Shown: positions 7,297 through 41,086, counted from the first letter of the stretch. The stretch is DNA of 46,769 nt from Thermoleophilaceae bacterium (GCA_040901445.1 JBBDYQ010000006.1:1-46769), one strand, 5' to 3'. Program-made: numbers and translations. Notes: generated by a model not told the origin, from the letters alone.

Positions 7297-7340
7297 GGGG
7301 TCAGGTCTGACCCCTACGCAATGCAAGACCTGACCCCCTA
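7297..7340. repeat. Family A palindromic repeat (copy A1)
   Basis: Left arm TAGGGGGTCAGGTC and right arm GACCTGACCCCCTA are perfect 14-bp complements ending at 7340. The left half also folds on itself (GGGGTCA-GGTC-TGACCCC). The outer edge supplies the TAG stop of the rhodanese gene on the minus strand (7340-7338). It sits between the codirectional rhodanese and decarboxylase genes. Confidence 0.85.
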
Positions 7341-10345: not shown

Positions 10346-10699
10346 ATGAATGTCGATCTAACCTTGACCCCCAAGCAGAAGCGCCCGCCGGGCGAGCCCT
10401 GCTGCGTGCCGATCGCCCTCCCCGAGATCGACCGGCAGCGAGCGGAGCGGCTGACGGCGCTGGCCAAGGCGCTCGCCGACCCCGTCCGGCTCCAGCTCGT
10501 GGACGTGCTGCGGCGCCACGCGGGGCAGGTCTGCGTCTGCGAGCTGCAGCCGCTGTTCGACATCTCCCAGCCCACCCTCTCCCATCACCTCAAGAAGCTG
10601 CGCGAGGCCGGCATCGTCGGCGTCGAGCGGCGTGGCCTGTGGGCCTACTACTACGTCAACCCCGAAGCACTGGAGGATCTCTCGTCATGGCTGTCCTGA
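10346..10699 (+). CDS. arsR: ArsR-family arsenic-responsive repressor
   Basis: A protein of 117 residues. The winged helix is LAKALADPVRLQLVDVLRRH, then the recognition helix ISQPTLSHHLKKLREAG, then the wing VERRGLWAYYYV. Candidate As(III)-binding thiols are C19-C20 (EPCCVP) and C63/C65 (VCVCEL, the CxC motif of the alpha-3 site). It should repress the operon until arsenite or a trivalent organoarsenical binds. The ATG is supported by the leaderless promoter. It overlaps arsI by 13 nt and opens arsR-arsI-aqp-arsC. Confidence 0.92.
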   Translation: MNVDLTLTPKQKRPPGEPCCVPIALPEIDRQRAERLTALAKALADPVRLQLVDVLRRHAGQVCVCELQPLFDISQPTLSHHLKKLREAGIVGVERRGLWAYYYVNPEALEDLSSWLS

Positions 10700-11163
10700 G
10701 ACCACACCTCGCGCTCACCGTCACCGACGTGGAGCGCTCCGTTCCCTTCTACAGCGCCCTCTTCGGCGCCGAGCCGGTGAAGACCAAGCCCGGCTACGCG
10801 AAGTTCGACGTCGCCGAGCCCGCCATGAACTTCACGCTCAACGCGGGCGATCGCGGGGACACCCTCGGCGCGTTCAACCACGCCGGCATCCAGGTCGCCT
10901 CCACGGACGACGTGCTCGCGGCCAAGGAGCGTCTGGTCGAGGCAGGCCTCGCGGCGTTCGACGAGATGGACACCACCTGCTGCTACGCGCGCCAGGACAA
11001 GATCTGGGTGCACGACCCCGACGGCACGCCGTGGGAGGTCTTCGCGACCCACGAGGACACCGAGGAGGCGGGCGACTCCCGGCTCCAGGGCAACACCGAC
11101 GGCTGCTGCGAGCACGACACCGCGGACAACTCCCCGGCCACCTGTGCCTGCGCAACCGGCTGA
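10687..11163 (+). CDS. arsI: ArsI/CadI-family C-As lyase (VOC fold)
   Basis: A protein of 158 residues. The expected Fe(II) ligands are H7 (RPHLAL), H65 (FNHAGI) and E117 (PWEVF). The vicinal pair C98-C99 in DTTCCYARQDK matches the organoarsenical-binding cysteines described for ArsI. ArsI cleaves the carbon-arsenic bond of methylarsenite and reduced aromatic arsenicals, releasing As(III). The closely related CadI proteins share these motifs; the ars operon favours ArsI. A C-terminal tail rich in Cys and acidic residues (GCCEHDTADNSPATCACATG) could hold extra thiolate. It overlaps arsR and the aquaporin gene. Confidence 0.88.
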   Translation: MAVLRPHLALTVTDVERSVPFYSALFGAEPVKTKPGYAKFDVAEPAMNFTLNAGDRGDTLGAFNHAGIQVASTDDVLAAKERLVEAGLAAFDEMDTTCCYARQDKIWVHDPDGTPWEVFATHEDTEEAGDSRLQGNTDGCCEHDTADNSPATCACATG

Positions 11164-11827
11164 GCGTCCCGACCTGCCCCGCCGCGCCGGCGCGGAGGCC
11201 ATCGCGGCCTTCGCGCTGGTGTTCGCGGGCGGCGGGGCCATCGTGGCGGACGCCGAGGCCGGCGGCGAGCTGGGCACGGTGGGGATCGCGCTCGTCTTCG
11301 GGCTCGTGATCATGGTGATGGTCTACGCCACGGGCCACCTCTCGGGGGCGCACATCAACCCCGCCGTCACGATCGCCTTCACGCTCACCCGCCACTTCCC
11401 GCCGCGCGACGCCGCGGCGTATGTGGCCGCCCAGCTCGGCGGCGCCGCGGCGGCGGCGGGCCTCCTGCTGGCCGTGTGGCCGGACGCTCCAGCCGACCTG
11501 GGCGCCACGGTGCCGAGCGTGGGCTCCGGGAGCGCGTTCGTCTACGAGCTCGTGCTCACCGCCTTCCTGATGTTTGTGATCATGGCCGTGGCCACCGACA
11601 CCCGCGCCGTGGGCTCAGGGGCCGCCATCGCGATCGGCGGCACGGTGGGCCTGGATGCGCTCTTCGGCGGCCCGGTCACCGGCGCGTCCATGAACCCGGC
11701 GCGCTCCTTCGGCCCCGCGCTGGCGGCGGGGGAGTGGAGCGACTTCTGGGTGTACGTGGCCGGCCCGCTCACCGGCGCGGCCATCGGGGCGTTCGCGTAT
11801 CAGCTCGTGCGAGGGGAGCACCAGTGA
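11144..11827 (+). CDS. Aquaporin/MIP channel of the ars operon (AqpS-like)
   Basis: A protein of 227 residues with six membrane helices and both half-helix NPA motifs: SGAHINPAVT and TGASMNPARS, the Arg after the second being the selectivity-filter arginine. In Sinorhizobium meliloti an aquaglyceroporin (AqpS) replaces the arsenite pump in an arsR-aqpS-arsC operon, letting arsenite made by ArsC leave down its gradient. The same logic fits here because no ArsB or Acr3 is present. The start GTG 11144 overlaps the arsI end by 20 nt. Water or glycerol transport alone is the alternative, but operon position argues for As(III). Confidence 0.85.
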   Translation: MPAQPAERPDLPRRAGAEAIAAFALVFAGGGAIVADAEAGGELGTVGIALVFGLVIMVMVYATGHLSGAHINPAVTIAFTLTRHFPPRDAAAYVAAQLGGAAAAAGLLLAVWPDAPADLGATVPSVGSGSAFVYELVLTAFLMFVIMAVATDTRAVGSGAAIAIGGTVGLDALFGGPVTGASMNPARSFGPALAAGEWSDFWVYVAGPLTGAAIGAFAYQLVRGEHQ

Positions 11828-12213
11828 GCCGCGTGCTCTTCGTCTGCCTGCACAACGCCGGCCGTTCGCAGATGAGCCGGGCGCTCTTCGAGCGAGCCGC
11901 CGGCAGCCGGCACGACGCCGACTCCGCAGGCACCACGCCCGGCGAGCGCGTGCACCCCGAGGTGGTGACCGCGATGGAGGAGCTCGGCATCGACGTGTCG
12001 GGCAACACCCCGAAGCGGCTCACCGACGAGCTGGCGCATTGGGCCGACGTGGTCGTGACGATGGGCTGCGGCGACGAGTGCCCCTACATCCCCGGCAAGC
12101 GCTACATCGACTGGGACCTGCCCGACCCCAAGGGCCGCCCGCTCGAGGAGGTGCGCGCCACGCGCGACGAGATCGACCGGCGGGTGGAGCGCCTGCTCGC
12201 AGAGCTGGAGTAG
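11824..12213 (+). CDS. arsC: Arsenate reductase, thioredoxin-coupled (LMW-phosphatase type)
   Basis: A protein of 129 residues. The phosphatase-like P-loop is CLHNAGRS (C8 to R14). The relay cysteines are C82 and C86 in MGCGDECPYIPG, followed by DWDLPDPKG with the general-acid Asp. The layout is that of the Staphylococcus pI258/Bacillus ArsC class, which reduces As(V) to As(III) using thioredoxin. The GTG start overlaps the aquaporin stop (GTGA). Its TAG stop forms the first three bases of the TAGGGT -10 box of the next gene. Confidence 0.92.
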   Translation: MSRVLFVCLHNAGRSQMSRALFERAAGSRHDADSAGTTPGERVHPEVVTAMEELGIDVSGNTPKRLTDELAHWADVVVTMGCGDECPYIPGKRYIDWDLPDPKGRPLEEVRATRDEIDRRVERLLAELE

Positions 12214-14350: not shown

Positions 14351-14373
14351 AAAAGGTGCGGACGGACGCACCT
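14351..14373 (-). terminator. Rho-independent terminator of hpd-hmgA
   Basis: On the minus strand AGGTGCG-TCCGTC-CGCACCT is a perfect 7-bp stem followed by TTTT (14354-14351). The upstream arm overlaps the hmgA stop codon. Confidence 0.75.
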
Positions 14374-15574
14374 AACCCGTGGTGGAGGACCCCACCGGCG
14401 ACGGCTCCTCCGTGTACCACGAGTAGGCGTAGGACGGCTCGTCCAGCTCGCGCGCCAACGACGTGAGCTTCATCGGCTTGAAGGTGTCCCACATCACAGC
14501 CAGCTCCTCGGTGCGGCGGGCGCCCAGCGCCTTCTCCACCAGGCCCGGCTGCGGGCCGTGGGGCAGGCCGGACGGATGCACCGTGATGGAGCCGATCTCG
14601 ATGCCCTTGCGCGAGCCGAAGTCGCCCGAGACGTAATAGATCATCTCCTCCGACTGCACGTTGGAGTGGTGGTAGGGGAGAGGGACCGCCTGCGGGTCGT
14701 AGTCCAGCTCGCGCGGGCAGAACGAGCAGATCACGAAGCTCTGGCCCTGGAAGGTCTGGTGCACCGGCGGCGGCAGGTGAAGGCGCCCGGTGCGCGGCTC
14801 GAAGTCGTGGACGTTGAACGTGTACGGATAGACGTAGCCGTCCCAGCCCACCACGTCGAAGGGGTGGTAGTCGAGCAGGTAGCGTTGGAGGCCGCCGCGC
14901 ACGCGCAGGACGAGCTCGAACTCGCCGCGCTCGCGGTGGGTCTCCAGCTCCTGGGGTGGGTGGAAGTCGCGCTGCGAGTAGGGCGCATGCTCGAGCAGCT
15001 GGCCGTAGCGATTGCGGTAGCGGTTGGGCGTCTCGATCTCGCCCGGGGTGTGGAAGTAGAGCCAGGTCTGCGGGCCGTCGAAGCTGAAGCGGTAGGTGGT
15101 GCCGCGGGGAATGACGAGGTAGTCGTGCCGGCGGAAGGGCACCCGCCCGAACACGGTCTCGAGCACGCCGCCGCCCTCGTGCACGAAATAGACCTCGTCG
15201 CCCTCGCCGTTGCGGTAGAACGCCTCGCCTGCCGTGACCGGCTTGACCACCGCCAGCTCGAGGTCGGAGTTCCATTGCAGGACCTGGCGCCCGGAGATGG
15301 GATCGCCTCCGGGCGCCAGGCCTGCGGTGCGCGTGTGACGGTGCACGTGGGCGTCAGGCACCCATTCCTCGTGCACGATCGGGGTGAAGTCGAGGGCCTT
15401 GCGGATCCGGCAGGGCGACTCCAGGTGGTAGAGGATCGACTCGTTGCCGGAGAAGCCCTCGAAGCCGAGCACCTCCTCCACGAGCAGGCGCCCGCCGCCG
15501 TTGCCGCCGGCTCCGTTGTCCCGGAACTGCACGTGCCGCTTGGCCGGGATGTCGCCGAGCTGGGCGTAGCGCAT
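14372..15574 (-). CDS. hmgA: Homogentisate 1,2-dioxygenase
   Basis: A protein of 400 residues of the HmgA cupin family. FVICSFCPRELDYDP is a family landmark. The Fe(II) ligands are expected in YHHSNVQSEEMIYYVSG (His and Glu) and in HPSGLPHGPQPG (His). It opens the aromatic ring of homogentisate to maleylacetoacetate. It is somewhat shorter than proteobacterial or human HGD (about 430-445 residues), as is common in actinobacterial forms. It starts 2 nt after the hpd stop, so the two are one transcript: hpd makes homogentisate and hmgA cleaves it. The terminator hairpin begins at its stop codon. Confidence 0.9.
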   Translation of the reverse strand: MRYAQLGDIPAKRHVQFRDNGAGGNGGGRLLVEEVLGFEGFSGNESILYHLESPCRIRKALDFTPIVHEEWVPDAHVHRHTRTAGLAPGGDPISGRQVLQWNSDLELAVVKPVTAGEAFYRNGEGDEVYFVHEGGGVLETVFGRVPFRRHDYLVIPRGTTYRFSFDGPQTWLYFHTPGEIETPNRYRNRYGQLLEHAPYSQRDFHPPQELETHRERGEFELVLRVRGGLQRYLLDYHPFDVVGWDGYVYPYTFNVHDFEPRTGRLHLPPPVHQTFQGQSFVICSFCPRELDYDPQAVPLPYHHSNVQSEEMIYYVSGDFGSRKGIEIGSITVHPSGLPHGPQPGLVEKALGARRTEELAVMWDTFKPMKLTSLARELDEPSYAYSWYTEEPSPVGSSTTG

Positions 15575-15576
15575 GG

Positions 15577-16674
15577 CTAGAGGTTCCCCCGCAGCTCCTG
15601 CTCCCGCTCGATCGCCTCGAACAGCGCCTTGAAGTTGCCCTCGCCGAAGCCGCGCGCGCCGTGGCGCTCGATCAGCTCGAAGAAGACGGTGGGGCGGTCG
15701 CCGATCGGCTTGGTGAAGATCTGCAGCAGGTAGCCCTCGTCGTCGCGGTCGGCGAGGATGCCGAGCTCGCGGAGGTCCGCCACGTTCTCGTCGATCTCGC
15801 CGATCCGCCCGGGCAGCTCCTCGTAGTAGGACTCGGGGGTGGTGAGGAACTCCACCCCGCGCTCCCGGAGCCGGCGCACCGTGCCGACGATGTCGGTCGT
15901 GGACATCGCCACGTGCTGCACGCCGGCTCCCCCGTAGAACTCCAGGTACTCCTCGATCTGGGACTTGCGCTGGCCCTCGGCGGGCTCGTTGATCGGGAAC
16001 TTGATGCGGCCGTTGCCGTTGGCCACGACCTTCGACATCAGCGCCGAGTACTCGGTGGAGATGTCCTCGTCGGAGAAGTGGATCATCTCGGTCATCCCGA
16101 AGACGCGCTCGTAGTAGGAGACCCACTCCTCCATCCGCCCGAGCTCGACGTTGCCCACGACGTGGTCGATGCCGGCGAGCAGCCCCTCGTCCGGACCGGC
16201 GTTCTCGACCGGCCGAAACCCGGGCATGAAGCCGGTGCCCCCTGAGCGCTCGACGAAGGTGTGGAGGGTCTCGCCGTAGGTGGCCACCTGGGCGAGGCGC
16301 ACGCCGGCGTCCTCCCACGTCTCGCGGATGCCGCGGGCGCCGCGGCGGACGGCCTCGCGATAGGCGTAGTCGGCGTCGGGCACCGACAGCGCGATGACCT
16401 TCACGCCGTCGCCGTGCTCGGCCACGTGCCGGGCGATCTCGGAGCCGGGATGCAGCGCGGCCGTGACCACCAGGCGGATGCGGCCCTGCTCCAGCACGTG
16501 CGAGGCGCGGTCGCGCACCCCGGTTTCGAGCCCGGCGCGCGCGGTCTCCGTGAATCCGAAAGCGTGCGTGAGGTGGTACACCGCCTGCTTGGCGTTGCCC
16601 ACGTAGAGCTCGAGGTGGTCGATGCCGTGCAGCGGCATCGTGTCCTGGGTGGGGGCGATTGTCTGTGTGGCCAT
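15577..16674 (-). CDS. hpd: 4-hydroxyphenylpyruvate dioxygenase
   Basis: A protein of 365 residues made of two VOC-fold halves. The Fe(II) ligands are the His of GIDHVVGNVE, the His of AGVQHVAMSTTDI and the Glu of VFFELIERHG. The C-terminal gating helix GARGFGEGNFKALFEAIE is typical of HPPD. It converts 4-hydroxyphenylpyruvate to homogentisate in tyrosine catabolism. It opens an operon with hmgA and is divergent from an Lrp-type regulator across a 51-nt promoter region. Confidence 0.94.
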   Translation of the reverse strand: MATQTIAPTQDTMPLHGIDHLELYVGNAKQAVYHLTHAFGFTETARAGLETGVRDRASHVLEQGRIRLVVTAALHPGSEIARHVAEHGDGVKVIALSVPDADYAYREAVRRGARGIRETWEDAGVRLAQVATYGETLHTFVERSGGTGFMPGFRPVENAGPDEGLLAGIDHVVGNVELGRMEEWVSYYERVFGMTEMIHFSDEDISTEYSALMSKVVANGNGRIKFPINEPAEGQRKSQIEEYLEFYGGAGVQHVAMSTTDIVGTVRRLRERGVEFLTTPESYYEELPGRIGEIDENVADLRELGILADRDDEGYLLQIFTKPIGDRPTVFFELIERHGARGFGEGNFKALFEAIEREQELRGNL

Positions 16675-16725
16675 GTGCTTTATGATTCACGGGTATGGTA
16701 TCAGTCTCAACCAGGATTCATTGCG
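16675..16725. promoter_or_regulatory. Divergent hpd / lrp regulatory region with direct repeats
   Basis: This short region is AT-richer than its surroundings. GATTCA occurs twice in the same direction at 16684-16689 and 16715-16720, 31 bp apart, close to three helical turns, as expected for cooperative binding by an Lrp-type octamer or dimers. TATGGT (16693-16698) is a possible -10 for the + strand gene. On the minus strand TTGAGA and ATCATA, 18 bp apart, are a candidate -35/-10 pair for hpd. Confidence 0.5.
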
Positions 16726-17154
16726 TTGGATGACGTTGACCGCAAGATCATTGCGCTGATGAGAGAGGATGCGCGGCGTTCGTTCCAGGACATCGGCGAG
16801 CGCGTCTCGCTGTCCGCGCCGGCGGTCAAGCGGCGCGTGGACCGCCTGGAGGAGCGCGGCGTGATCAAGGGCTACACCGCGACCGTCGACCCCGAGGTGC
16901 TCGGCTTCCACACGCATGCGTTCGTGTCCATGTACTGCGAGGGCCGGATGGCCGCGGGCGAGATCCGAGCGGCCGTGCGCGACCACCCCGAGGTCGTGGG
17001 CGCCTACACCGTGGCCGGCGAGTCCAGTGCCATCCTCCACGTGGTGGCGGCCGACACCCAGCACCTCGAGGAGTCGCTCGAACGGCTGCGCGACACTCCG
17101 GGGATCCTGCGCACCCAGACGCAGGTCGTGCTCTCCACCCTGCTCGAGCGATGA
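16726..17154 (+). CDS. Lrp/AsnC-family regulator
   Basis: A protein of 142 residues. The N-terminal helix-turn-helix is DDVDRKIIALMREDARRSFQ, then IGERVSLSAPAVKRRVDRLEERG. The C-terminal RAM/ligand domain ends in LRTQTQVVLSTLLER. TTG 16726 is taken as the start because it gives the canonical DxxDxxIL Lrp N-terminus; no ATG or GTG is in frame nearby. Position implies control of divergent hpd-hmgA, perhaps with an aromatic amino or keto acid as ligand. The gene also leads the ATP-grasp/ferritin-like operon (ATGA overlap), so it likely controls both directions. Confidence 0.85.
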   Translation: MDDVDRKIIALMREDARRSFQDIGERVSLSAPAVKRRVDRLEERGVIKGYTATVDPEVLGFHTHAFVSMYCEGRMAAGEIRAAVRDHPEVVGAYTVAGESSAILHVVAADTQHLEESLERLRDTPGILRTQTQVVLSTLLER

Positions 17155-18500
17155 TCGACGGCGTCGCGGACCTCAAGCTCCAGCATCTGGTCGAGCTGTC
17201 CAAGCTGGGCGACGGCGCCTGCGATCTCGAGCGCGAGATCGAGGGCTGGCTGGCCGAGCACGACGTGGTCTTCGACGGCCACACGATCCCGTTCGTGCTC
17301 ATGCCGCACTTCATCTCGGGCGCCCAGCTGAAGGAGGTGCGCCGCGCGGTGGGCTGCCTGTCGGCCGTGCTCGACCGCCTCTGCGACGCCTATCCCGAGG
17401 ACGCCCGCCTGCGCGAGGAGCTGGCCGTGCCCGAGCGCGAGGACGAGCTCATCCGCATGGACGCTGGCTACCCGCGCCCGCTGCGCATCTGCCGGCTCGA
17501 CGCGTTCCTGTCGGGCGGCGACGTGAAGTTCCTCGAGTTCAACGCCGACTCGCCCGCCGGCATCGGCTACACCGACATCCTGTTCGACGGATTGGCGCGG
17601 GCCATCGACCTGCCGCGCGTGCGCGGCGAGTTCGAGACCTCCTACACGCCGATGCTGCCGGTGCTCATCGCCACGCTGCTCGACGCCTACAAGCACTTCC
17701 GCGGCGGCACGGACCTTCCGGAGCGGCCGCGGCTGGCTCTGGTGGACGTGGCCGGCTCGCCCAGCGTGCCGGAGTTCCGCATCATCTGCGCCGCCGCCGG
17801 CGACGCCGGTGTCGAGGCCCTGCACTGCACGCTCGACGACCTCTCCTACGACGGGTCGGTGCTGCGTGCCGGCGGCGAGCCGGTGCAGCTCGTGTACCGC
17901 CGCGCCCTGCTCGAGGACGTGGGGGACGGCCCGCTGCTGGACGCCGCCCGCGACCGCCGCGCCTGCCTGGTCAACCCGTTCCGCGCGCGGGTGGCCAACA
18001 ACAAGAAGCTCTTCGCCCTGCTCGAGGATCCCCGTTATGCCGATCGCGACGAGCTGGAGGTCATCCGCCGCACGATCCCCTGGACGCGCGTGCTGCGGGA
18101 CGGCCGCGCCACCTGGGGCGACTGGGTGGTGGACCTGCTCGCCTTTGCCTCCGACAACCGCGAGCGGCTGGTGCTCAAGCCGGCGTCCGACTACGGCGGG
18201 CACGGCGTGGCGCTGGGTGTGGAGACCGGGCAGGGCGAGTGGGACGCTCTCATCGAGGAGCACGCGCCGCGCGCGGACTTCGTGGTGCAGGAGTACGTCC
18301 CGGTCCCGCAGGAGATGTTCCCGACAGTCGAGGACGGTCACATCCAGATGCAGCTCAAGCACTTCAACATCAACCCGTTCGGGATCGGAGGCCGCTACGC
18401 CGGCATGATCACCCGCATCTCCGACCGCGCGGTGATCAACGTGTCGGCGGGCGGCGGCCTGCTGCCGAGCGTGCTGGGAAAGGGGCGCAGCCATGCTTAG
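17151..18500 (+). CDS. Circularly permuted ATP-grasp ligase-like protein
   Basis: A protein of 449 residues. Motifs match the glutathionylspermidine-synthase-like/circularly permuted ATP-grasp group: VKFLEFNADSPAGIGYTD, the nucleotide-binding lysine strand RLVLKPASDYGGHGVALG, FVVQEYVPVPQEMFP, and the metal-binding end LKHFNINPFGIGGRYAG. Such enzymes join a carboxylate to an amine or thiol through an acyl-phosphate. No amidase domain is fused and the substrate is unknown. It sits between the Lrp regulator (4-nt overlap) and a ferritin-like protein (8-nt overlap), next to tyrosine catabolism genes. A small-molecule or peptide ligation pathway using an aromatic compound is a possibility only. 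Confidence 0.8.
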   Translation: MIDGVADLKLQHLVELSKLGDGACDLEREIEGWLAEHDVVFDGHTIPFVLMPHFISGAQLKEVRRAVGCLSAVLDRLCDAYPEDARLREELAVPEREDELIRMDAGYPRPLRICRLDAFLSGGDVKFLEFNADSPAGIGYTDILFDGLARAIDLPRVRGEFETSYTPMLPVLIATLLDAYKHFRGGTDLPERPRLALVDVAGSPSVPEFRIICAAAGDAGVEALHCTLDDLSYDGSVLRAGGEPVQLVYRRALLEDVGDGPLLDAARDRRACLVNPFRARVANNKKLFALLEDPRYADRDELEVIRRTIPWTRVLRDGRATWGDWVVDLLAFASDNRERLVLKPASDYGGHGVALGVETGQGEWDALIEEHAPRADFVVQEYVPVPQEMFPTVEDGHIQMQLKHFNINPFGIGGRYAGMITRISDRAVINVSAGGGLLPSVLGKGRSHA

Positions 18501-19668
18501 GCGCGGCTACGACGTCGACGAGAACGCCATCCGCTTCTCGAACTACTTCCATGTGCTGCGCGAGCTCGTCCACCTGTCGTCCGGCTGGCTGGCGCTGGAG
18601 CCGTCGTTCGAGCGCAAGTATGCGCTGGGCGACCATCTCCACGACGACGCGCGCGCGGTCACGAAGGTCAAGCGGCGGCTGTACGAGCTGCGCCACCCGA
18701 GCGACTACCCGGGCGCGCCGGGTCCCGAGCTCGCGCAGCTGCTCGACGAGCTCGCGGCGGCGGACTCGCCGGAGGCCTACCGCGAGCTGGCCTACGGCGT
18801 GGTCAAGCCCACACTGGCCGCCGCGATGCGCGTGCACCTGGCCGAGCTCGACCCGGTGACTGACGAGCCGTCGCTGCGCCTGCTCGAGCAGGTGGCCGCG
18901 CGGCAGGAGCGCCACAGCCAACAGCGGGGTCAGGTCTTGCATTCACACACCGGAGGTGTCGGAATGCAAGACCTGACCCTGGATCTGGGCGCGCTCCCGA
19001 TCAAGCTCCGCGGCGAGCCGCGGCCGCTGCGCATCCTGCCGCCGCTCCACGACCCCGCTCGCGACGAGTTCGTGGAGGTGAACGAGCACGGCGACCCGTA
19101 CCTCACCGACGACCTGTACGTGAACGGCGACGAGAACCACGTGCCCACCGACCCCGACGAGCAGCGCCACTTCTTCCACGGGCTGATGGACGCGGAGCTG
19201 TGCGCGGCCGAGCTGATGGCGCGCAACTCGCACGAGCATCCGGAGATGCCGTGGGACTTCCACGTGGACATGGCCCGCCAGACCTGGGACGAGCTGCGCC
19301 ACGCGCGCGTGCACGAGATCCTCATGCGAACCGAGCTGGGCTGCCGCTGGGGCGACTACCCGGTGGGCTTCTCCTACTTCCGCTCCATCTACGCCCATGA
19401 CCTGCTTGGCCGGCTGGTGCTCTTCAACGGAACCAGCGAGCAGAAGGCCATGTGGCGCCACTCGCACCGCCGCAAGGTGCTGGTGGAGCTGGGGCAGGAG
19501 AGCGTGGCGAAGGTCTTCGACTACCTGCTGGCGGACGAGGTGCCGCACGTGCACAACGGCGTGCGCTGGGGCACCCACCTGCTCGGCGGCGACGAGAGCG
19601 CCTACCGAGAGAAGGTGCGCGAGCTGCGCCAGGGGCTCGACCACACGGGCGCGCCGGCCTCCGCCTAA
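18493..19668 (+). CDS. Ferritin-like di-iron protein with in-frame palindromic insert
   Basis: A protein of 391 residues. The C-terminal half has a ferritin-like metal set: ELCAAELMARNSHEH, then TWDELRHARVHEI (E..H), then YLLADEVPHVHNG (DExxH), which resembles DUF455-like proteins. The N-terminal 145 residues are helical (HVLRELVHLSSGWLALEP, GDHLHDDARAVTKVKRRL). Between the halves lies palindrome A2, read as RGQVLHSHTGGVGMQDLT; its length of 54 nt (18 codons) preserves the frame. The ATG at 18964 inside the repeat could also start the C-terminal domain separately. It likely acts with the upstream ATP-grasp protein, for example as an oxidase or oxygenase, but no reaction is known. Confidence 0.75.
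   Translation: MLRRGYDVDENAIRFSNYFHVLRELVHLSSGWLALEPSFERKYALGDHLHDDARAVTKVKRRLYELRHPSDYPGAPGPELAQLLDELAAADSPEAYRELAYGVVKPTLAAAMRVHLAELDPVTDEPSLRLLEQVAARQERHSQQRGQVLHSHTGGVGMQDLTLDLGALPIKLRGEPRPLRILPPLHDPARDEFVEVNEHGDPYLTDDLYVNGDENHVPTDPDEQRHFFHGLMDAELCAAELMARNSHEHPEMPWDFHVDMARQTWDELRHARVHEILMRTELGCRWGDYPVGFSYFRSIYAHDLLGRLVLFNGTSEQKAMWRHSHRRKVLVELGQESVAKVFDYLLADEVPHVHNGVRWGTHLLGGDESAYREKVRELRQGLDHTGAPASA
18926..18980. repeat. Family A palindromic repeat inside a coding sequence (copy A2)
   Basis: Left arm GGGGTCAGGTCTTGCATTC (18926-18944) and right arm GAATGCAAGACCTGACCCT (18962-18980) are complementary except for the last base. An inner ACACC/GGTGT stem extends the hairpin. It is open in the reading frame of the ferritin-like gene. 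Confidence 0.9.
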
Positions 19669-19771: not shown

Positions 19772-20515
19772 CTACGCCAGCCGGCCGGCCACGATCTGCG
19801 CGAACCCGGCCAGGCGCTGGGTGACGTCCGTGAATCCGCGCCCTTCGAGCAGGCCCACGACCTCGCGCCGGTCGAACATGCGCTGGCCGCTCAGGCGGCC
19901 GGTGATGGAGTCGAGCGTGCGCAGCGGCTGCGGGTCGCGGCGGCGGCTGGTGAGCAGCGCCACGCGGCCGCCCGGCCTGAGCACGCGCGCCATGTGGTCG
20001 AGCGCCTTCTCGGCGTCCGGGAACATGTGCAGCGCGGCGAAGCAGCAGACGGCGTCGAAGGTCTCGTTGCGGAAGGGCAGCAGCACGGCGTCGCCGCGCA
20101 CGTAGGCGGCCTCTCCGCCGGGCGTGTCGCGCACCGCGCGCTCCAGCATCGTCGTCGAGGCGTCGATGCCCACGGCCAGCCCGTCCGGCGCCACGGCGCG
20201 TGCGAAGTCGCGCGTGAAGTTACCCGGCCCGCATGCCACGTCGAGCACCGTCACGCCCGGTTCGAGCCCGAGCAGCTCGCGCGCCAGCCGGTGCTCCGCT
20301 GATCGGGTGAGTCCGGTGAGCAGCAGCCCCCACCCGGGCCGCCACCAGCGCTCGTAGACCATGGGGAGGACCCCGGTGTTCATGAGGCGGGGCGCGAACC
20401 CGGTGGCCTCGGGAGCGGCCCCGCCGAGCAGGTCGATGTAGCCGCGGGACGCGTCCGGACCGGCCGGCGGCGTGGCGAGGAGCTCGAGCGTGCGGTCGAC
20501 CGCGGTGGCGCTCAC
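19772..20515 (-). CDS. Class I SAM-dependent methyltransferase
   Basis: A protein of 247 residues. Rossmann methyltransferase motifs: VTVLDVACGPGNFTRDFARA (motif I), VGIDASTTML (acidic motif II), GDAVLLPFRNETFDAVCCFA, and HMARVLRPGGRVALLTSRR. It resembles UbiE/Methyltransf_11 proteins acting on small molecules; the acceptor is unknown. The GTG at 20515 overlaps the stop of the upstream FAH-family gene (GTGA), so the two are cotranscribed. The association suggests a role with aromatic or keto-acid metabolites. Confidence 0.85.
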   Translation of the reverse strand: MSATAVDRTLELLATPPAGPDASRGYIDLLGGAAPEATGFAPRLMNTGVLPMVYERWWRPGWGLLLTGLTRSAEHRLARELLGLEPGVTVLDVACGPGNFTRDFARAVAPDGLAVGIDASTTMLERAVRDTPGGEAAYVRGDAVLLPFRNETFDAVCCFAALHMFPDAEKALDHMARVLRPGGRVALLTSRRRDPQPLRTLDSITGRLSGQRMFDRREVVGLLEGRGFTDVTQRLAGFAQIVAGRLA

Positions 20516-21324
20516 GAGACGGGAGTCTCCAGCATGCCGAGCCCGTCCGCCTCGAGGGCCACCACGTCGCCCGGCTCGATCCATCCTCCGCCGAGCTCGA
20601 GCAGGCAGCCGCCGTTGAGCGTGCCCGAGCCGAGCACGTCGCCGGGGCGCAGGCGGGTGTCGCGGGCGGCGTGCGCCAGCAGCTCGTCCCAGCCGAAGTG
20701 CTGCTCGCCCGCATTCGCCCGCGCGCGCTGCTTGCCGTTCACCGTCACGGTGGCCTCGAGCTGCAGCCGTCCGTTGCGGAGCGGCAGCTCGTCCGGGGTC
20801 ACCAACCAGGGGCCGAGGCTGATGGCGAAGTCCTTGCCCTTGTGCGGCCCGAGCCCGACGGTCATCTCGGCCCGCTGCACGTCGCGGGCGCTCCAGTCGT
20901 TCATCAGCGTGAAGCCGGCGATCTCGCCTTCGCCGCCGATGACCGCCGCGATCTCCAGCTCGAAGTCGAGCTCGCTGCTCGCCGCCGGGCGCTCGATCGG
21001 CTCGCCCGGGCCGCGGATCGAGGCCGGGTTGGAGAAGTAGAAGACGGGCGCGTCGTACCAGGCGGCCGGGATCTCGCCGCCGCGCCGGCGCCAGCCCGCG
21101 GCCACGTGGCCCTCGTAGGCGTAGAAGTCGCGCACGGACGGCGGCTCCGGGAGAGGGGCGAGGAGCTGAACGTCCGCGAGCCGGTGCTTGGCGCCCGCCG
21201 CCTCCCTCCCCTCACCTGCGAGCCAGTGGAGCATGGTGGGCGCGGCGAGCGTTCGCACGTCCTCGCCGTCGAGCTTTCCGACGCGCACCGCGCCGGCTGG
21301 TTCGCGGAAGGTCACAAGACGCAC
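20512..21324 (-). CDS. Fumarylacetoacetate hydrolase family protein
   Basis: A protein of 270 residues. FAH-fold features: RDFYAYEGHV, the metal triad SELDFELEIAAVIG (E-x-E) with NDWSARDVQ (Asp), GPHKGKDFAISLGPW (Lys), and GSGTLNGG near the C-terminus. Family members are fumarylacetoacetases, hydratases, isomerases or oxaloacetate decarboxylases that use Mg2+ on acylpyruvate-like substrates. With hpd and hmgA 4-5 kb away it is a candidate for the last step of the homogentisate route, though it is shorter than eukaryotic FAH (about 420 residues). GTG 21324 is chosen over upstream in-frame starts because the family begins at RLVTF. Confidence 0.8.
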   Translation of the reverse strand: MRLVTFREPAGAVRVGKLDGEDVRTLAAPTMLHWLAGEGREAAGAKHRLADVQLLAPLPEPPSVRDFYAYEGHVAAGWRRRGGEIPAAWYDAPVFYFSNPASIRGPGEPIERPAASSELDFELEIAAVIGGEGEIAGFTLMNDWSARDVQRAEMTVGLGPHKGKDFAISLGPWLVTPDELPLRNGRLQLEATVTVNGKQRARANAGEQHFGWDELLAHAARDTRLRPGDVLGSGTLNGGCLLELGGGWIEPGDVVALEADGLGMLETPVS

Positions 21325-21393
21325 GCGAGCAGCTTGCCAAAAGCCGCTGAGGCGCATCGCCGTCGCACAGCGACCACAAGGGGCCACAGCGGT

Positions 21394-39625: not shown

Positions 39626-41086
39626 TTGGCCAGGGGCCGCGTGCCGCGGGCCGCCGCGGCCGTCGCCGGCCTGGCGGTCGCAGCATGGGTGTCCACCCGC
39701 TGGGTCTCCCTGTCCCCGGACGCCCGCTACTCGCTCGCCTGGGGCGCCGAGCTCATCCGCGGCGACGCCCCGCAGGTGGACGCGCCGGAGGTGTCCACGC
39801 CGCACCCGCTCCCGATAGTGGCCGGCGGGCTGGTGTCGCTGCTCGGCGCGCGGGCGGCCGCCGACGTGTACGCCTTCGGTGCGGTGCTCGCGTTCGCCCT
39901 GCTCGTGTACGCCGGCTTCCGGCTCGGCCGGGCGCTCGGGGGCACGGTGGCGGGCGTGGTGGCGGCCGCACTTGTGGCCACCCGCGAGCGCGTCGACTTC
40001 TTCGCCTCGCGCGCGTTCATCGACATCCCGTTCGCCGCGCTGGTGCTGCTGGCGGCGGCGCTGGCGGCGGAGGGCCCCCGCCGCAACGCCACACCCGCGC
40101 TGGGGCTGCTCGCGCTCGCCGGCCTGCTGCGCCCGGAGGCGTGGGGGCTCGCCGCGCTGTACGGCGGCTGGGTGATCGTCGACCAGGCCCGCCCCAGCCG
40201 GGGTCAGGTCTTGCAGAACGGCAGAACTCGGGCCGAAGGCCCCTGCTGGTCTGCAAGACCTGACCCCGGCCCCTGCGGCATTGCAAGACCTGACCCCGGC
40301 CCGGCACCTGCGGCCACGCTCGCCCTCGTTGCCGCCGCGCCCGCCATCTGGATCCTCTTCGACCTCGCGCTCACAGGCGACCCCTTCCACTCCCTCCACG
40401 GCACCCAGGAGAACGCGCTGCTGCTCGAGCGCGACACCGGCCTCGACGACCTGGGGCCCAGCCTGCGCGCGGGAATCGAGGACCTCGCCGGCCTGGCGCC
40501 CGCCGCGGCGGGCGCGGCGTTCGGGGCCTGGGGGCTGGTGCGCTTCCGGCGCGAGCGCCCGGCGTTCGCGGTCGTCATGGGGCTGGTGGGTGCGGGGATC
40601 GCCGCCTTCGCCCTGCTGGCCGTGGCGGACCTGCCGCTCAACGACCGCTACCTCGTGGTGCCCGCGCTGGCGCTGCTCGCGCTCGCCGCGGCCGCGGTGC
40701 CACGGGCCACGCGCAGCGTCGTGGCGGCGGCCGCCGCCACGCTGGCGCTCGTGCCGGCCGCGCTGGCGCTGCCTGACGACCTCGACGCGGCGGGCGACGG
40801 GCTCGAGGGCGCACACTCCAAGGCGCGCGCGGACGAGGACCTCGAGCGGCTGCTCTCGCGCGACGGCGTCCGCGCCGCGATCGATCGCTGCCAGAGCCTG
40901 TCGGCCGCGGCGTCCGGGCGTCCGGCGGTGGCGGCCCTGCTGGGGCGCGACCCCGCCACGGTGGCCATCTCGCTCAGCCCGGTGCCGCCGCCGGGCAGCG
41001 CCACCCTGAGCACGAGCGAGACCGTGCCGCCCGGCACCCCGCGGAGCGTGCGCGTGCGTGCCTGGACCTTCGTCAACCGCTGTTGA
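39626..41086 (+). CDS. Polytopic membrane protein, GT39-like, with in-frame palindromic insert
   Basis: A protein of 486 residues. There are about ten hydrophobic helices. The first extracytoplasmic loop (SPDARYSLAWGAELIRGDAP, then VSTPHPLPIV) resembles the catalytic-loop end of mannosyltransferase-like (GT39/GT83/ArnT) proteins, though the diagnostic DE pair is not clear. The C-terminal part is soluble. Between helices, residues near 190-225 are encoded by palindrome A3 and read RGQVLQNGRTRAEG... and ARPDP twice, interrupting an otherwise hydrophobic region. The start is uncertain: TTG 39626, or GTG 39641. It probably transfers a lipid-linked sugar at the membrane, but this is a family-level guess. 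Confidence 0.65.
   Translation: MARGRVPRAAAAVAGLAVAAWVSTRWVSLSPDARYSLAWGAELIRGDAPQVDAPEVSTPHPLPIVAGGLVSLLGARAAADVYAFGAVLAFALLVYAGFRLGRALGGTVAGVVAAALVATRERVDFFASRAFIDIPFAALVLLAAALAAEGPRRNATPALGLLALAGLLRPEAWGLAALYGGWVIVDQARPSRGQVLQNGRTRAEGPCWSARPDPGPCGIARPDPGPAPAATLALVAAAPAIWILFDLALTGDPFHSLHGTQENALLLERDTGLDDLGPSLRAGIEDLAGLAPAAAGAAFGAWGLVRFRRERPAFAVVMGLVGAGIAAFALLAVADLPLNDRYLVVPALALLALAAAAVPRATRSVVAAAAATLALVPAALALPDDLDAAGDGLEGAHSKARADEDLERLLSRDGVRAAIDRCQSLSAAASGRPAVAALLGRDPATVAISLSPVPPPGSATLSTSETVPPGTPRSVRVRAWTFVNRC
40197..40300. repeat. Family A palindromic repeat inside a coding sequence (copy A3 plus half copy)
   Basis: The complete part has 20-bp arms at 40197-40216 and 40251-40270 (GGGGTCAGGTCTTGCAG and its complement plus GCC/GGC edges). 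A further right half (GCATTGCAAGACCTGACCCC) is at 40278-40297. All of it is open in the frame of the membrane-protein gene. Confidence 0.9.

Follow-up and report, generated by a model that had tools for sequence, protein, structure and literature searches.

Background

GspS, YgiC/YjfC and glutathione synthetase are ligases that join a carboxylate to an amine through an acyl phosphate, at the expense of Mg-ATP. At least 25 gene clusters, mangotoxin among them, pair ATP-grasp ligases with a di-iron oxidase of the HDO type (PMC13185094). A second arrangement is known from the biosynthesis of E-64, in which epoxidation of fumarate precedes its ligation by the ATP-grasp enzyme Cp1B (PMC12568646); this ligase accepts a dicarboxylic acid that has no amino group and acts together with an iron oxygenase. 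Among di-iron proteins, the PaaA/PaaC monooxygenase has two ferritin-like subunits, only one of which contains a metal site. Tyrosine catabolism is encoded in many Thermoleophilia by an hpd-hmgA-FAH locus with a divergent Lrp regulator.

These systems are the nearest known counterparts of a locus of a Thermoleophilaceae bacterium (GCA_040901445.1), lying in a stretch of 46,769 nucleotides (JBBDYQ010000006.1:1-46769, hereafter the window). The initial annotation described there an operon of an Lrp regulator, a circularly permuted ATP-grasp ligase and a ferritin-like di-iron protein, and proposed that it ligates and oxidises a small molecule under the regulator of tyrosine degradation. We consider it about an even chance (probability roughly 0.5) that ligase and di-iron oxidase form a two-gene module which makes or alters a small-molecule conjugate, the Lrp belonging instead to hpd-hmgA. 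By analogy, the pair most likely resembles the known ATP-grasp/HDO clusters, such as mangotoxin mboABCDEF (PMC13185094), in that a small number of genes includes both an ATP-grasp amide ligase and a di-iron oxidase. The di-iron fold differs, however: here the protein is ferritin-like and of the DUF455 family, not HDO. The ligase, moreover, is of the GspS type, and neither a transporter nor other cluster genes are conserved.

Results

Organization of the locus

The three overlapping genes were correctly recognized (Table 1). The TGA ending lrp at 17154 overlaps the ATG of the ligase gene at 17151 (ATGA, 4 nt), and the TAG of the latter at 18500 overlaps the ATG of the ferritin-like gene at 18493 by 8 nt. 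The trio is also back-to-back with hpd-hmgA, as had been claimed: hpd starts at 16674 on the minus strand, and the Lrp start codon is most likely the TTG at 16726, leaving a divergent gap of 51 nt. HPPD was confirmed by NCBIfam and hmgA by Pfam; the latter is a divergent relative which scores 51 bits against an NCBIfam equivalog cut-off of 511, yet exceeds the Pfam cut-offs for HgmA_N and HgmA_C. The regulator matches the Pfam families AsnC_trans_reg and HTH_AsnC. The ORFs are not due to chance because they are conserved in nine further loci, with identities of 67-76% for the ferritin-like protein and 49-75% for the ligase; a genome-wide scan found a single copy of each of these two genes in the window's genome.

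Table 1. Features of the locus, in window coordinates
Feature	Position	Strand	Basis
hmgA, homogentisate 1,2-dioxygenase (divergent type)	14372..15574	-	Pfam HgmA_N and HgmA_C over cut-off; neighbour of hpd in several genomes
hpd, 4-hydroxyphenylpyruvate dioxygenase	15577..16674	-	NCBIfam TIGR01263, 442 bits (cut-off 277)
hpd/lrp divergent intergenic region, 51 nt	16675..16725		Sequence
Lrp/AsnC regulator, probably of hpd-hmgA	16726..17154	+	Pfam; ortholog divergent from hpd elsewhere
ATP-grasp C-N ligase, GspS/YgiC/eukaryotic glutathione synthetase superfamily	17151..18500	+	Pfam, fold, conserved residues
Two-domain ferritin-like protein (fusion)	18493..19668	+	Pfam, ortholog alignment
N-terminal ferritin-like half, residues 8-146	18514..18930	+	VIA-align; separate ORFs in other actinobacteria
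REP-like palindrome, in-frame interdomain linker	18927..18979		Sequence; more copies across the genome
C-terminal DUF455 half, residues 221-380, di-iron ligand set	19153..19632	+	Pfam, ligand conservation
Fumarylacetoacetate hydrolase (FAH) family protein	20512..21315	-	Pfam FAA_hydrolase; start at 21387 or 21315

Two other features of the window may be noted. What looks by eye like an arsenic operon (10364-12213) seems to comprise ArsR, a glyoxalase-fold ArsI/CadI-like protein, an aquaglyceroporin and an arsenate reductase. Some 3 kb separate the ferritin-like gene from a PuuD-like peptidase C26 ORF (22574-23284); a role as gamma-glutamyl hydrolase could bear on the substrate of the ligase, but no such neighbour was seen at the other loci of the pair.

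Distribution and pairing of the two genes

The searches placed orthologs of both genes in Thermoleophilia alone, in the window's genome and at nine other loci belonging to four families, and searches of plasmids returned distant matches only. Ligase and ferritin-like genes are adjacent in all ten loci, although their order is reversed once (G229, locus L105). Since the adjacency holds despite this reversal, the ligase and the probable di-iron enzyme appear to work as a pair, so that the neighbourhood survey upholds the functional coupling that had been proposed for them. A different possibility is that the genes are neighbours by common descent only, without a joint function: all loci are in one class and the adjacency could simply be inherited. 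This is very improbable, considering that the neighbourhood has outlived not only the reversal but also a 2-kb insertion between the two genes (L109), and has been kept in four families with different flanking genes.

In fact, no third gene is constant beside the pair across the ten loci, and the module proper most likely consists of just two genes, those for the ligase and for the fused ferritin-like protein. The flanks carry hpd, hmgA, Lrp and FAH in three loci, a PNPOx-like gene and an inositol monophosphatase in two, a guaB-like gene and guaA in four, and a cation exchanger in one. The four loci with guaA (L107-L110) belong to one Thermoleophilia genus, and there the pair follows the IMPDH-like (guaB-like) gene and guaA with ends that overlap or nearly do so. 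In G041 and G229 an FAH family gene remains close to the pair. Unusually for a biosynthetic cluster, the two genes have no conserved transporter, tailoring enzyme or electron donor next to them. The mostly open-access literature on DUF455 and on ATP-grasp enzymes with ferritin-like partners does not describe this pair.

The ATP-grasp ligase

The ligase (449 aa), scored as a whole protein, reaches 32.7 bits against the Pfam family GSP_synth (PF03738), whose gathering score is 29.3; this match is marginal, the genome-wide scan having given 25.1 bits, under 29.3. CP_ATPgrasp_1 and CP_ATPgrasp_2 both stay below their cut-offs (18.8 of 32 and 13.1 of 23.1 bits, respectively). These two families represent the type of circularly permuted ATP-grasp usually tied to alpha-E and transglutaminase partners, and neither an alpha-E nor a transglutaminase gene was present among the annotated neighbours of the ligase and its relatives; Pfam scores and neighbours together rule this type out.

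An AlphaFold model built from nine sequences (mean pLDDT 78.5, pTM 0.79) was compared with solved structures. Its closest match is YgiC (Z 26.1, rmsd 3.6 over 357 residues), followed by YjfC (Z 25.3), GspS (24.4), plant and yeast glutathione synthetases (24.3) and Cp1B (23.5). Matches within this superfamily span 350-400 residues, with a sharp fall to Z of 10 or less for other proteins. By its circularly permuted ATP-grasp fold as a whole, the model thus belongs to the GspS/YgiC/eukaryotic glutathione synthetase superfamily. The circularly permuted fold assigned by the initial annotation was therefore right, whereas the alpha-E/transglutaminase type that it had mentioned gives way to the GspS type.

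Conserved residues of the ligase are R115xD117, E129xN131, K285, K343 and Q380: orthologs as well as relatives near 30% identity have R115, D117, E129, K285 and K343 without exception, and N131 is kept in all orthologs. The RxD...ExNADxP motif aligns with RMD...EYNADTP of YjfC. Given the superfamily fold together with the conserved catalytic (metal/substrate) motif and ATP-binding lysines, an active C-N ligase is likely, as predicted from sequence and model. This narrows the substrates to an acid and an amine; which acid and which amine, fold and motif do not predict.

With E. coli YgiC/YjfC and GspS (PF03738; PDB 7uk8, 7uk6, 2ioa) the ligase shares the fold over about 360 residues (Z 24-26) and RxD/ExN, but it has only 14-16% identity, a di-iron partner and, according to Pfam, no fused amidase domain like that of GspS proper. 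Cp1B (PDB 9cjn; PMC12568646) has the same superfamily fold, but it is fungal, its oxygenase is Fe/alpha-ketoglutarate-dependent, and its sequence identity to the ligase is very low.

Distant relatives of the ligase (27-36% identity) were rejected as carriers of the same module, their neighbours including no DUF455 partner. At some of these loci (L050-L052 and L073-L075, about 32% identity) the relative adjoins MFS transporters, an amine oxidase, or genes that read as a small ketosteroid-isomerase-like and a dehydrogenase-like one.

The two-domain ferritin-like protein

The C-terminal half belongs to DUF455 (PF04305; 63.1 bits against a Pfam cut-off of 34.3). A glutamate, an ExxH, a second glutamate and a second ExxH form the classic di-iron carboxylate ligand set of a four-helix bundle, and this half holds it in full: E235, E267xxH270, E316 and E349xxH352. 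These six ligands are invariant from the orthologs down to separate DUF455 genes at 25-27% identity. The bundle itself is weakly modelled, the ligand set being evident in the sequence. Because the model of the whole protein is poor (mean pLDDT 54), it is from the family and the ligand pattern that the C-terminal half is assigned its fold. Foldseek matches of the model were not significant; among them was TenA, whose fold is related to that of the HDO, or heme-oxygenase-like di-iron oxidase, proteins. A sequence search found no DUF455 structure in the PDB, and the titles and abstracts of 15 papers mentioning DUF455 describe no function for it. From its sequence, the DUF455 half is probably a di-iron enzyme, with the metal predicted.

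The N-terminal half is a second, degenerate ferritin-like bundle without a complete set of metal ligands. Structural alignment, which tests mainly residues 5-153 of the protein, found Dps and bacterioferritin as its best matches; the VIA-align Z of 14.1 with Dps over 139 residues is only slightly above chance for helical bundles. In a distant homolog this half gives a weak PaaA_PaaC match. The ferritin-like di-iron protein of the initial annotation is thus borne out by the complete ligand set of one half and refined by the presence of two ferritin-like domains. The likeness to PaaA/PaaC would lie in pairing a ferritin-like half that has a metal site with one that has none, but here the halves are fused in one chain, the metal-binding half is DUF455 and not PaaA, and there are no PaaB/PaaE partners.

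In other actinobacteria (L129, L131-L136) the N-terminal half and DUF455 are two adjacent genes, which makes the Thermoleophilia protein a fusion. A profile search in ten loci of distant ferritin-like relatives found no ATP-grasp partner. The two-gene version lies near glnA- and nadE-like genes in L129 and L136. In one distant cluster (L135) the DUF455 and N-half genes come after a gene for a 4Fe-4S ferredoxin, as would be expected, by analogy, of an electron-requiring oxygenase. By eye, this cluster also has acyl-CoA dehydrogenase and thiolase genes and reads as catabolic.

These observations bear on the idea that the pair makes a protective thiol or polyamine conjugate, the ligase producing a glutathionylspermidine-like compound and the ferritin-like protein acting as a peroxidase or in iron handling, not as an oxygenase. 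GspS and YgiC/YjfC are indeed the closest folds to the ligase, ferritin-like folds include rubrerythrin and Dps, and the N-terminal half finds its best matches in Dps and bacterioferritin. We judge it quite improbable nonetheless: the ligase lacks the GspS amidase domain, the di-iron half is DUF455 and not rubrerythrin or ferritin, and a relative sits with a ferredoxin in the catabolic-looking cluster.

The Lrp regulator and the possible relationship with tyrosine catabolism

The core genes of the tyrosine locus are identical here to those of many other Thermoleophilia, but the pair is only an occasional guest beside hpd: it adjoins hpd in three of the ten loci, in one of which the order is rearranged with FAH in between. 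In G203, G326 and G705, hpd-hmgA and the divergent Lrp are on a different contig from the pair, and G157 has hpd and the divergent Lrp with the pair absent. Because its ortholog keeps the divergent position next to hpd even when the pair is missing or located elsewhere, the Lrp belongs to hpd, and its membership in the module was ruled out. It is probably the ortholog of the hpd regulator, with the pair a guest beside hpd-hmgA. Shared regulation is plausible only for the window's genome and the similarly arranged G041.

The initial annotation had staked its proposal on the genes being found mostly beside each other and beside hpd; the former is the case in all ten loci, while seven lie away from hpd, which is not a constant neighbour. 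With the Lrp belonging to hpd-hmgA, this argues against the pair as part of the tyrosine pathway. The expected co-occurrence fails at the level of adjacency and is found at that of genomes: hpd is present in nine of the ten pair-bearing genomes, the tenth being a metagenome-assembled genome that may be incomplete, and within the order in 5/5 pair-bearing genomes compared with 32 of 201 overall (hypergeometric P 8e-5, treating as independent genomes that share ancestry). Conversely, 27 of these 32 hpd-bearing genomes are without the pair. We read the association as real; it could possibly be due to shared ecology or to a pathway-derived substrate; from sequence, a tyrosine metabolism link of the pair is possible.

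The substrate explanation would have the pair act directly on a metabolite of tyrosine catabolism (4-hydroxyphenylpyruvate, homogentisate or the end product fumarate), the acid being conjugated to an amine or amino acid by the ligase and oxidised by the di-iron protein. Besides the co-occurrence, it can call on the three loci in which hpd, hmgA, Lrp and FAH accompany the pair in shuffled order, and on the structural match of the ligase to Cp1B, E-64 biosynthesis being a precedent for the logic (PMC12568646). We regard it as rather unlikely, given the seven non-adjacent loci, the many hpd-bearing genomes without the pair and the guaB-guaA context in one genus; hpd may moreover only mark aerobic heterotrophs with a richer catabolism.

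A palindromic element in the linker

The linker between the ferritin-like halves is formed by a REP-like palindrome of 53 nt (GGGGTCAGGTCTTGCATT...AATGCAAGACCTGACCC), in frame. It is absent from all ferritin-like orthologs, whose linkers are nearly as long. Further copies or arms are present in the window (7317-7337 and 40198-40299), at loci L003-L030 and in tens of matches in the genome. Of 18 places examined, 6 show an overlap between a predicted ORF and the element or a half of it, the window gene being one of them; this recalls the Rickettsia palindromic elements within genes. Half or whole, it lies inside a methyltransferase-like ORF (L019, about 1501-1532) and a DNA-ligase-like ORF (L015, about 1501-1535), and at the end or start of predicted ORFs in L008, L023 and L024.

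Discussion

The reading that we prefer, a ligase and DUF455 oxidase module acting on a small-molecule conjugate, derives from the fold matches at Z 24-26, the RxD/ExN motif, the invariant di-iron ligands and the adjacency in 10/10 loci. Counting against it are the co-occurrence with hpd, which in 9/10 genomes is stronger than an unrelated module predicts, the poor ferritin-like model, and the lack of a conserved transporter, tailoring enzyme or electron donor.

In this module, the ligase would use Mg-ATP to turn a carboxylate into an acyl phosphate and then join it to an amine. The DUF455 half would bind two metals, most likely iron, and activate O2 to oxidise the small molecule on which the ligase acts, either before it is ligated or afterwards. 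The N-terminal half may be a metal-less structural partner, like PaaC beside PaaA. In the window's genome the module would have come to lie downstream of the Lrp of hpd-hmgA, and its expression probably accompanies tyrosine catabolism, of which it would not be a necessary step.

A bolder version, which we hold to be unlikely, is that of an undescribed class of Thermoleophilia small-molecule pathway, in which an acid from tyrosine catabolism is converted to an oxidised conjugate by a GspS-type ligase together with a fused DUF455 di-iron oxygenase. If true, it would be a ferritin-fold counterpart of the ATP-grasp/HDO clusters and would provide a first function for DUF455. The pair is a small testable system, where DUF455 is coupled to a well-understood ligase fold, and it would extend the theme of ATP-grasp ligases with di-iron enzymes to another di-iron fold.
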